Source of the DNA: Nocardiopsis sp. YSL2
Lineage (GTDB): Bacteria; Actinomycetota; Actinomycetes; Streptosporangiales; Streptosporangiaceae
Assembly (NCBI RefSeq): GCF_030555055.1
Contig: NZ_JAMOAO010000001.1
Coordinates: 1,798,001-1,862,000 of the forward strand
Direction: 5' to 3'
DNA length: 64,000 nucleotides
In this document: positions 14,104 to 60,440 of the stretch, piece after piece
Layout of the letters: each line of letters opens with the position of its first letter
Numbering within the stretch: position 1 is the first letter of the stretch
The notes under the pieces: model-generated
Databases searched by the model: none
The model's input: only the letters and a program-made list of their open reading frames with translations
What the model was told of the DNA's origin: nothing
Made by a program: the position numbers and the translations under genes

Positions 14104-14135
14104 GAGGGGACCTCCGGGGACGCGGGCGCACGTAC

Positions 14136-14175
14136 GCGCCGTCTTGTCCTACCGGGTACGGCGCACCTCGTCCGG
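14136..14175 (-). promoter_or_regulatory. Guanidine-III (ykkC-III) riboswitch
   Basis: Read on the minus strand, 14175 to 14136 begins CCGGACGAGGTGCGCC, continues GTACCCGGTAGGAC and ends AAGACGGCGC. This matches the compact pseudoknotted guanidine-III aptamer almost base for base as I remember the Thermobifida form. It ends 32 nt before the gdx start codon, with the ribosome site in between. Guanidinium binding should favour translation of the exporter. Confidence 0.93.
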
Positions 14176-14519
14176 GGTCGCATGAGCGTCCTCCGCCCCG
14201 GGCCCGCCGGGCCTCTGGGACGGTCCGGCTCCGCGGCCGGTCGTACGGTACAACGCCGCGCCCCCCGGGGGGCGTTCCGGACAACGCGGTCAGACGGATC
14301 ACCGCGGGCCACCGCTCGCCGACCGCTCACCGCACGACGCGACCGCTCATCGCGCACTGGGCGACCACTCGGCGACATCACTCCGCGTTCGGCGCGCATT
14401 GGGGCGCACCCCCTCCACGTGCGGAGTGTCGCTCCTTACAGTTCCGAGTAACGCAGGTCACATCCCCGAAACACGCACGACATCACCCTCTCCGCCAATC
14501 CCCCCGGAGGATTCGCACC
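14176..14519. other. Gap: divergent promoters of gdx and the symporter operon
   Basis: No gene is seen. The 14290-14470 part carries CACTCGGCGACATCACTCCG-like low-complexity C/A sequence and then GGAGTGTCGCTCC, an imperfect inverted repeat. A CGGAGGA ribosome site for the next gene is at about 14506-14512. Confidence 0.45.
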
Positions 14520-58898: not shown

Positions 58899-60167
58899 CT
58901 ACCGGGCGGCGACGGTGTCCTCCCACAGGACCGGGTCGTGGGCCCGTACCCGGTCGGCGACGCGGCCCAGCGCCTCCCCCGCGGGCATCGGGTCCAGACG
59001 GCGGCCGCCGCGCAGGCGCAGTGCGACCGATCCGTCGGCGGCCTCCCGCGCTCCGACGACGGCCTGATAGGGCGCCAGGCGGGACCGGCGAACGCGGGCG
59101 CCCAGGCTCCCGCGCTCGGGCCCGACGAGCTCGGCGCGCAGCCCGAGGCCGTCGCACCGCCGGACGAGGTCCTCGGCGGCCCCGGTTTCGGCCCCGGAGA
59201 TCGGCAGGACGACCACCTGGACGGGCGCGAGCCAGGCCGGGAAGGCGCCGCCGTGGTGTTCGAGCAGGTGGGCGACGGCCCGTTCCACACTCCCGACGAC
59301 ACTGCGGTGCACCATGACCGGCCGGTGCCTGGCCCCGTCCGGCCCGATGTAGGACAGCCCGAACTGCTTCGGCTGGTGGAAGTCCACCTGGACGGTGGAC
59401 AGGGTCGACTCGCGGCCGGCGCCGTCGGTGATCTGGACGTCGATCTTGGGCCCGTAGAAGGCCGCCTCCCCCTCCACCGGCTCGTAGGGCACACCGGAGC
59501 GCTCCAGCACCTCGGTGAGCACCTCGGTGGAGCGCCGCCACAGCTCGGGATCGTCGACGTACTTGCCGCCGGGACCGGGGAGCGACAGGCGGTAGCGGCT
59601 GGGCTCGATGCCGAGAGCCCGGTAGGCGCGGCGGATCATCCCCAGGGCCGCCTCCGCCTCGTCGGCGGCCTGTTCCGGGGCGCAGAACACGTGCGCGTCG
59701 TTGAGCTGGATCGCCCGCACCCGGGTCAGGCCGCCGAGGACGCCCGAGAGCTCGGAGCGGTACATCGCGCCCAGTTCGGCCACGCGCAACGGCAGCTCCC
59801 GGTGGCTGCGGGACCGGGACCGGTAGATCAGCGCGTGGTGCGGGCACAGGCTGGGGCGCAACAGCACCTGCTCGGAGCCCAGCTCCATCGGCGGGAACAT
59901 GTCGTCGCGGTAGTGCGCCCAGTGTCCCGACAGCTCGTACAGCTCCCGTTTGCCGAGCACCGGCGAGTACACGTGCCGGTACCCCGCCCGCCGCTCCTCG
60001 GCGCGTACGTACTCCTCCAGGGCGTACCGCACGGTGGCGCCGTCGGGCAGCCAGTACGGCAGGCCCGCTCCGATGAGGGGATCGGTGTCGAACAGCTCCA
60101 GCTCACGGCCGATCCTGCGGTGGTCGCGGCCGTGGGCGCGGTCGGGTGCGGTGGTCGCGTCGGTCAT
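58899..60167 (-). CDS. Short threonyl-tRNA synthetase (catalytic and anticodon domains only)
   Basis: 422 residues. Full ThrRS is about 640-690; the N-terminal TGS and editing domains are absent. The class II core is intact: motif 2 region MYRSELSGVLGGLTRVRA, zinc ligands in RPSLCPHHA, NDAHVFC and VMVHRSVVG, and motif 3 SVERAVAHLLEHHGG. The HGTP anticodon domain follows (about 310-420). ATG 60167 is preceded by GAGGAG. The gene lies behind a leader peptide with three Thr codons and an attenuator hairpin. Without an editing domain it must tolerate Ser-tRNA(Thr) or rely on trans editing. A full-length thrS is expected elsewhere. Confidence 0.9.
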   Translation of the reverse strand: MTDATTAPDRAHGRDHRRIGRELELFDTDPLIGAGLPYWLPDGATVRYALEEYVRAEERRAGYRHVYSPVLGKRELYELSGHWAHYRDDMFPPMELGSEQVLLRPSLCPHHALIYRSRSRSHRELPLRVAELGAMYRSELSGVLGGLTRVRAIQLNDAHVFCAPEQAADEAEAALGMIRRAYRALGIEPSRYRLSLPGPGGKYVDDPELWRRSTEVLTEVLERSGVPYEPVEGEAAFYGPKIDVQITDGAGRESTLSTVQVDFHQPKQFGLSYIGPDGARHRPVMVHRSVVGSVERAVAHLLEHHGGAFPAWLAPVQVVVLPISGAETGAAEDLVRRCDGLGLRAELVGPERGSLGARVRRSRLAPYQAVVGAREAADGSVALRLRGGRRLDPMPAGEALGRVADRVRAHDPVLWEDTVAAR

Positions 60168-60207
60168 CGTGGTCTCCTCGCGTTCGGTGGAGCGAGTGAC
60201 CACAGGA

Positions 60208-60239
60208 CGAAGCCCCGGGGCACTCGCCCCGGGGCTTCG
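60208..60239 (-). terminator. Attenuator hairpin in the thrS leader
   Basis: CGAAGCCCCGGGGC (60208-60221) pairs perfectly over 14 bp with GCCCCGGGGCTTCG (60226-60239) around ACTC. It stands between the leader peptide stop (60252) and the thrS start (60167). In transcription order it therefore follows the peptide by 12 nt, the layout of an attenuator. Confidence 0.75.
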
Positions 60240-60251
60240 ATCAGGCATCGG

Positions 60252-60302
60252 TCAGCGCGCCGGGGGACTCTCCGGCGTCGTCGTCACAAAGGCGCGCTGC
60301 AT
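60252..60302 (-). CDS. Thr-rich leader peptide of the short thrS
   Basis: 16 codons: MQRAFVTTTPESPPAR, stop. Three consecutive ACG threonine codons sit at positions 7-9. AGGGTGGGCGG just upstream of ATG 60302 can serve as ribosome site. The CGCCGG...CCGGCG pairing within the last codons could form an alternative hairpin. Placed before a strong terminator and a threonyl-tRNA synthetase gene, it is a classical ribosome-mediated attenuation leader that reads Thr-tRNA supply. Confidence 0.75.
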   Translation of the reverse strand: MQRAFVTTTPESPPAR

Positions 60303-60440
60303 GCCGCCCACCCTAGCAACGGCGCGACCACCCGTACACGGCATCGCGCCCCACGACGCGAAGGACGGTGGTCCGCCGGGCCCGCCCGGCCAGGCGTCCG
60401 GCCGCGTCCGGCGCCGGGCGGGACAGGCGCCGCCGGTCGG

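Follow-up and report, generated by a model that had tools for sequence, protein, structure and literature searches.

We found that thrS2, a short second threonyl-tRNA synthetase (ThrRS) gene of Nocardiopsis sp. YSL2, is preceded by a small leader ORF whose threonine codons are all ACG, and that its relatives across actinomycetes combine this leader with near-complete avoidance of ACG in the synthetase gene itself. Taken as a whole, the arrangement is probably best explained as a ribosome-stalling leader-peptide switch acting on a spare ThrRS gene. Sensing by the leader peptide appears very likely, and we favor, with moderate assurance, a readout that falls mainly at translation initiation, because no U-run follows the leader hairpin and because the pairings between hairpin loop and spacer and between spacer and Shine-Dalgarno sequence co-vary. 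Within the window (the whole 64,000-nt stretch of DNA that was analyzed), the elements are as follows:

60333..60338, minus strand: possible −35 element TGTACG, 17 nt from the −10 hexamer, a weak assignment from sequence only
60310..60315, minus strand: −10 hexamer TAGGGT, beginning 13 nt before the leader ATG
60252..60302, minus strand: leader ORF, MQRAFVTTTPESPPAR*, 16 codons, 51 nt including the stop
60291..60299, minus strand: 5′ arm of P1, CAGCGCGCC, codons 2 to 4, complementary to 60253-60261
60276..60284, minus strand: three successive threonine codons, all ACG, the candidate sensor, invariant in a 25-row alignment
60272..60276, minus strand: 5′ arm of P2, GCCGG, with its partner at 60259-60263
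60253..60263, minus strand: leader 3′ segment, CCGGCGCGCTG, made up of the P1 and P2 3′ arms; proposed partner of the P3 5′ arm upon stalling
60208..60239, minus strand: P3, a perfect 14-bp hairpin with a GAGT loop at 60225-60222
60221..60226, minus strand: 5′ strand of P4, CGAGTG, the P3 loop plus its closing pair, complementary to spacer positions 60198-60193
60192..60203, minus strand: spacer, GTGGTCACTCGC, with the P3 loop (P4) or the Shine-Dalgarno region (P5) as alternative partners
60169..60181, minus strand: Shine-Dalgarno region, GCGAGGAGACCAC, the 3′ side of P5
58899..60167, minus strand: thrS2, short second ThrRS, 422 amino acids

The first-pass annotation of this DNA had described a 16-codon ORF with three threonine codons ahead of thrS and a 14-bp hairpin 12 nt after its stop codon, and both were found (60302-60252 and 60239-60208, respectively). 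A ThrRS gene does lie downstream; however, it is the short second ThrRS and not the full-length copy, which is encoded at another place in the same genome. The thrS2 protein consists of the catalytic and anticodon-binding domains only, and its gene starts at 60167 with GAGGAG upstream. In the window, P3 begins 12 nt past the leader stop codon and is separated by a 28-nt spacer from the Shine-Dalgarno sequence, where P5 pairs GCGAG (60181-60177) with CTCGC and GACCAC (60174-60169) with GTGGTC. No short ORF containing TT or TxT was present in the 400 nt before the first possible start of the full-length thrS.

thrS2 is an accessory gene, found in 12 of 40 genomes within the genus and in 61 of 394 within the class, and the leader accompanies it closely. 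Within the genus, the 5′ end was intact in 11 of 12 thrS2 genes and the leader was found at all 11. Across the 394 actinomycete genomes of the class, all 59 assessable thrS2 genes of the 61 carry the leader (the two left unjudged, G188 and G324, are both at contig ends); therefore, the association is not due to chance. A search of genome contigs gave 80 named loci among the matches listed, of which 15, at 63 to 79% identity, were of the short type and came from Streptomyces, Kitasatospora, Amycolatopsis, Actinocrispum, and Plantactinospora. The leader was present at 14 of these 15; the other 65 loci (≤49% identity) were left out of this count. At the exception, L020 (3900-3980), thrS2 lacks the leader, P3 and the spacer are kept, and the gene is still free of ACG.

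A covariance model built from 25 leaders matched 61 places in 59 of the 394 genomes. Of the 58 matches with E < 1e-4, 57 had thrS2 downstream and the remaining one extends beyond the end of its contig; in the other direction, 57 of the 61 thrS2 genes had a match to the model. Two further thrS2 genes, in G234 and G243 (L157 and L158; 54% identity), have divergent leaders that retain the 13-nt block ACGACGACGCCGG, which comprises the ACG run plus CCGG and is invariant in the 25-row alignment. In the genus of G378, presumably Streptomyces, 123 of 246 sampled genomes matched the model at 125 places, of which 90 (30 + 60) were taken as new loci, 6 were already in the set, and 29 were left out. Altogether 170 loci were examined and 164 passed the leader rule, the failing ones being L020, L126, L190, L191, L199, and L201. 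A thrS2 start was assigned in 162 of the 164 (without one: L100 and L192), and removal of L134 and L140, which were dropped by the hairpin finder, left the set of 160 leaders used below. L126 has a leader although it fails the rule. L190, L191, and L199 have leader-like ORFs without the −10 hexamer, and L201 has the hexamer and the ACG run in an ORF that reads past the usual stop. By eye, in the 440 to 450 nt fetched for each, L190, L191, and L201 look decayed, the kinds of decay being the lack of an intact hairpin, a seemingly shortened thrS2, and a thrS2 not seen in the stretch.

Loss of the threonine codons among relatives had been set beforehand as one refuting test for leader-peptide control; when this was run, the codons proved to be conserved. 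A short, putatively translated ORF with a run of codons for the amino acid of the downstream enzyme, one hallmark of leader-peptide attenuators, is present and conserved here. The predicted start of the leader transcript points in the same direction. All 25 aligned leaders have a TANNNT hexamer that begins 12 or 13 nt ahead of their ATG, and so does every member of the 160-leader set (117 at −13, 43 at −12; the hexamer was used in choosing this set, which thereby excludes L190, L191, and L199), compared to 13 of 3539 control start triplets. This spacing implies a leaderless transcript, which probably begins at or beside the ATG. A consensus promoter scan reported no promoter at the candidate −35/−10 site of the leader. 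Control by a leader peptide, as put forward in the first-pass annotation, is well supported by the conserved threonine codons, the conserved and predicted leaderless start, and the strict association with thrS2; the terminator and antiterminator parts of the proposal are not, as described below.

We compared RNA pairings by swapping segments between nearest relatives (152 of the 160 leaders could be anchored), using disjoint pairs, which limit the effect of kinship without amounting to a full phylogenetic test. The two arms of P3 co-vary strongly (own versus swapped pairing better, 70:1). Pairing was also better with the own segment for the loop and spacer (P4; 42 own, 8 swapped; P = 5.8e-7) and for the spacer and Shine-Dalgarno region (P5; 48 own, 17 swapped; P = 7.6e-5). 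Control segments that were not expected to pair gave 22:27, 19:29, and 35:30, and the loop tested against the late spacer gave 31:21 (P = 0.11). Therefore P4 and P5, which have the spacer in common, both co-vary. For the P5 helix GTGGTC-A-CTCGC with GCGAG-GA-GACCAC, two-sided changes were seen in 39 cells versus 22.7 in shuffles (reached in 0/500; 71 aligned rows, i.e., 76 minus L016, L028, L137, L157, and L158), and the covariation score was 0.187 versus 0.145 when shuffled (0/500) and ≤0.107 when the segments were slid. When spacers were permuted among species (72 of 76 rows, minus L124, L137, L157, and L158), the P4 energy was −16.36 with the own spacer and −14.53 with permuted spacers (0/2000), the difference persisting for the 17 unusual loops (−15.32 versus −12.77; 0/2000), and the P5 energy was −16.46 versus −14.55 (0/2000). 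Loop and spacer form at least 9 continuous pairs in 88 of 160 leaders, with about 5 expected for shuffled spacers. In six similar loci (L165, L168, L171, L179, L180, and L182) the two have changed jointly, to GCAAG in the loop and CTTGC in the spacer, and the Shine-Dalgarno flank reads GCAAG in three of them and the still-pairing GCAGG in the other three. By eye, the Shine-Dalgarno hairpin in G234 and G243 is likewise paired with other letters (GGGCTCC/GGAGCCC).

In folds of 75 of the 76 rows (without L137), the fold energy was below that of shuffles (mean z of −1.35; below −1 in 45 of 75), and the pairing probability of the Shine-Dalgarno sequence was not above that with shuffled spacers (0.72 versus 0.68; rank ≤10 in 9 of 75). 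Hence a Shine-Dalgarno hairpin with a competing partner, the defining feature of a translational attenuator, is supported here by co-variation and not by pairing probability. P1 and P2, like P3, showed little variation in the 25-row alignment. P1 had no two-sided change in the 25 rows, with 92.7% of cells paired, and the swap test gave no support (5:9); P2 also had no two-sided change, 100% of cells being paired and one pair including one G-U, and its swap ratio of 13:9 was not significant. In L157 and L158, the most distant leaders, counterparts of P1 can be seen by eye (CACACC/GGTGTG and CACGCC/GGCGTG). The leader 3′ segment CCGGCGCGCTG is near-invariant in the 25-row alignment.

The hairpin had been called terminator-like in the first-pass annotation. 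No U-run follows P3 in the window, and in the 160 leaders the 12 nt beyond it never contain more than three consecutive U residues, so that P3 does not qualify as a canonical intrinsic terminator; the co-variation instead favors a Shine-Dalgarno hairpin with a competing loop pairing. The antiterminator pairing, which was offered as a check of the same proposal, fared no better: the leader 3′ segment and the P3 5′ arm gave swap ratios of 7:21 and 21:24, and the modeled duplex was no better than one with a shuffled leader segment (−15.4 versus −15.8). When the P3 3′ arm was blocked, folds of the window and of most of 8 examples did show the antiterminator pairing. With a ribosome placed on the leader, the minimum-energy fold retained P3 in 7 of 8 cases with the first threonine codon in the A site (exception, L110) and in 8 of 8 with the third. 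Because P3 is kept in folds with a stalled ribosome, the decision of the switch would have to fall during transcription, and this is the weakest link of the model. Two further features of the hairpin were noted. Of the 160 leaders, 38 have CGTCGT, the complement of ACGACG, where P3 ends, compared to 1.3 in shuffles; this could be a further pairing. Outside the 160-leader set, L192 (99-272) carries a threonine leader, MSQRSEFFVTTTPESVPVC, with P3 followed by UUUUUU before the thrS2 start, and this variant may terminate transcription.

These observations suggest the following course of events. A leaderless transcript would begin at the leader ATG, as indicated here by the promoter and as reported for Streptomyces lividans. 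With threonyl-tRNA for ACG in short supply, the ribosome would stall at ACG-ACG-ACG and mask GCCGG; in short leaders, the stalled ribosome would also mask CAGCGCGC. A ribosome with the first threonine codon in its A site reaches about 13 nt ahead, which matches the length of the block ACGACGACGCCGG over which it would stall. The freed leader segment CCCGGCGCGC could then hinder the nascent P3, a step to which co-variation lends no support. With P3 hindered, CGAGTG would pair with CACTCG of the spacer (P4), and the Shine-Dalgarno sequence would be uncovered and thrS2 translated; the pairings in this step come from co-variation, and the order of events is our proposal. When threonyl-tRNA is plentiful, the ribosome would reach the stop codon, P3 would form, and P5 would cover the Shine-Dalgarno sequence, leaving thrS2 off. 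A thrS2 message nearly free of ACG could presumably be translated while decoding of ACG fails.

The codon usage of sensor and target is opposite. The runs in the 160 leaders contain 477 threonine codons, 474 of them ACG; in the class set anchored on thrS2 the count is 172 of 174, to which L126, scored by eye, adds three ACG. The window thrS2, in contrast, has 13 ACC and no ACG among these codons. ACG is absent from 98 of 104 full thrS2 genes and occurs once in each of the remaining six, for a share of 0.5% of 1111 threonine codons; 64 of 69 nonredundant genes lack it, as do four additional thrS2 genes and that of L020. In control ORFs the ACG share was 28.5% (60 flanking ORFs) and 30.5% (31 window ORFs), with none of the 91 free of ACG; in-frame ACG occurs at 0.14 per 1000 codons in thrS2 versus 17.5 in controls. 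Out-of-frame ACG is not reduced in thrS2, and GCG, CCG, and TCG are used normally. Housekeeping thrS genes have 22% ACG (169 of 758 threonine codons in 30 genes, 2 of which lack ACG; some, with 8 and 5 threonine codons, were probably misread), and the long ORFs of ten hom-thrC-thrB loci have 33% (203 of 610; all long ORFs were counted, mostly hom, thrC, and thrB as judged by sequence and not by annotation). Given these values, strong avoidance of ACG is specific to thrS2 among the threonine genes tested. We consider it quite probable that the avoidance was selected owing to starved ACG decoding. The thrS2 of L020, free of ACG yet without a leader, counts against the overall model. Depletion of threonine in the ThrRS2 protein was also considered and set aside: 2.6% is low relative to 6.0% in control ORFs, but the same region of housekeeping ThrRS has 3.1%, so that the depletion is modest. 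Insensitivity of ThrRS2 to borrelidin was considered as well: by our own residue mapping, 90 of the 104 proteins carry HQP in place of the QLP of human ThrRS (PMC4389257), but housekeeping copies vary at this place, too.

Why ACG should be the sensor rather than the commoner ACC is a question raised by these data. The genome of the window has one tRNA-Thr gene each for GGU, CGU, and UGU (in a scan that omitted three tRNA hits of 82 to 89 nt), and ACC outnumbers ACG two to one. With single tRNA copies and a commoner ACC, gene dosage does not predict an ACG sensor; by dosage, ACC and not ACG would starve first. Two explanations offer themselves: tRNA-Thr(CGU) may be in short supply or poorly charged, or the circuit may concern that isoacceptor. 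In the latter case, loss of charged tRNA-Thr(CGU) alone would be sensed, and not a general shortage of threonine, and thrS2 would mend it. This is possible, though doubtful: the sensor is ACG only and the target ACG free, and threonine biosynthesis ORFs do not avoid ACG, as general starvation might have selected; however, an isoacceptor preference of ThrRS2 is hypothetical, and if tRNA-Thr(CGU) were scarce, selective charging would produce an identical pattern whenever ThrRS became limiting in general. We put forward only tentatively the complete codon-partitioned circuit, in which an ACG-only sensor measures decoding by tRNA-Thr(CGU) and the relay from loop to spacer to Shine-Dalgarno sequence answers at initiation on an ACG-free target. 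It also seems unlikely that the ACG bias has another cause, namely conservation of the leader block for the sake of RNA pairing and avoidance of ACG in the gene on account of its expression level. The leader block is indeed invariant at the nucleotide level in the 25 rows, and the CGTCGT at the end of P3 is consistent with such pairing; nevertheless, the remaining codon families are normal in thrS2 and its out-of-frame ACG is unreduced.

The readout is open to a different interpretation as well. Under classical transcription attenuation, P3 would terminate without a U-run or with the help of Rho, a threonine stall would lead to the antiterminator, and P5 would be secondary. The layout is like that of trp and leu attenuators, no helix is stronger than P3 or has arms that co-vary more clearly, L192 combines a similar leader and P3 with six U residues, and the folds favor a decision while the RNA is being made. 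Nevertheless, we regard this reading as rather improbable: the U-run is lacking throughout the 160 leaders, though two related genomes (L154 and L155) have, at a different leader, a hairpin followed by a U-run (see below), the antiterminator is unsupported by co-variation, and the co-variation among loop, spacer, and Shine-Dalgarno sequence would be left unexplained. Repression by a protein, with ThrRS2 or ThrRS binding the leader, was a mode named in the first-pass annotation and agrees with a structured leader before a ThrRS gene; Escherichia coli ThrRS binds its own messenger. Here, the loops (GAGT, GAGC, AAGT, GCAC, GAAC, and others) have no common anticodon-like triplet, and the conserved threonine codons would be unexplained, making such repression very improbable.

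The window leader is not the first of its kind. The first-pass annotation considered it a notable example among ThrRS genes; in print, however, S. lividans TK24 has thrL (SLIV_19412), encoding MKRVRPFLETTPGFVPAR, as a leaderless ORF before thrS (SLIV_19410), with one hairpin, no uridine-rich sequence, and termination called unclear (PMC8079986). L210, which was found with the leader covariance model, encodes MKRVRPFLETTPGFVPAR exactly, which suggests that it comes from S. lividans or a close relative. Sharing the covariance model, the leader, and the downstream gene, as well as the leaderless start and the single hairpin without a U-run, the published thrL and the window leader are the same element, the former with two threonine codons and the latter with three. 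The passages on thrL in that paper, one row of a table and a brief paragraph, describe neither its spread nor the P4/P5 pairings nor the codon pattern; the additions made here are the pairings and the ACG pattern. Among the matches listed in a search of open-license full texts, no other title reporting this threonine leader element was seen. A translational readout offers an answer to how the published thrL might function without a clear terminator.

Like the Thr_leader of proteobacterial thr operons and the actinobacterial trp, leu, and ilv attenuators (as described in part in PMC1262725), the element has a run of codons for the regulated amino acid followed by a strong hairpin; unlike them, it precedes a different gene and lacks a U-run. 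For actinobacterial threonine operons, the part of that study concerned reports no conserved upstream RNA structures. Rfam models matched neither Thr_leader nor T-box, at the gathering threshold or at E up to 10. Elsewhere in the window, a Guanidine-III riboswitch was matched at 14133-14195 on the minus strand (57.8 bits, E of 2.4e-9). In translational attenuators of the ermC type, a stalled ribosome frees the Shine-Dalgarno sequence of the next gene, as we propose here; the stall proposed for thrS2 differs in arising from codon starvation instead of a drug, and there is an extra relay through loop, spacer, and Shine-Dalgarno sequence. Bacillus subtilis also has a second ThrRS, thrZ, a spare apparently kept for shortage of threonyl-tRNA, which is under the control of a T-box, an element that reads tRNA directly. 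Like thrZ, thrS2 is a spare ThrRS gene, with no T-box found at it.

According to the theory of selective charging, leaders use the codon whose reading responds most strongly when the amino acid runs short (Elf and Ehrenberg 2005; PMC1183508). Relative to that theory, as set out in the part of the paper that bears on it, the thrS2 pattern is nearly absolute, includes avoidance in the target gene, and involves a codon that dosage does not predict. The element offers a naturally occurring and widespread example of a putative starvation switch whose sensor and target draw on opposite codons of a single family, and with it selective tRNA charging becomes directly testable outside E. coli. Three weak matches to the covariance model fell outside the element and were rejected. 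L153 has neither leader nor thrS2, and L154 and L155 have a different leader that is not a threonine leader. The latter two (408-482 and 408-479, respectively) contain a leaderless-looking, aromatic-rich leader, MQRKFWRFYGYRP..., with a hairpin and a U-run, preceding a gene that by its look resembles DAHP synthase; this leader and the threonine leader have a CAGCG/CGCTG end pairing in common.
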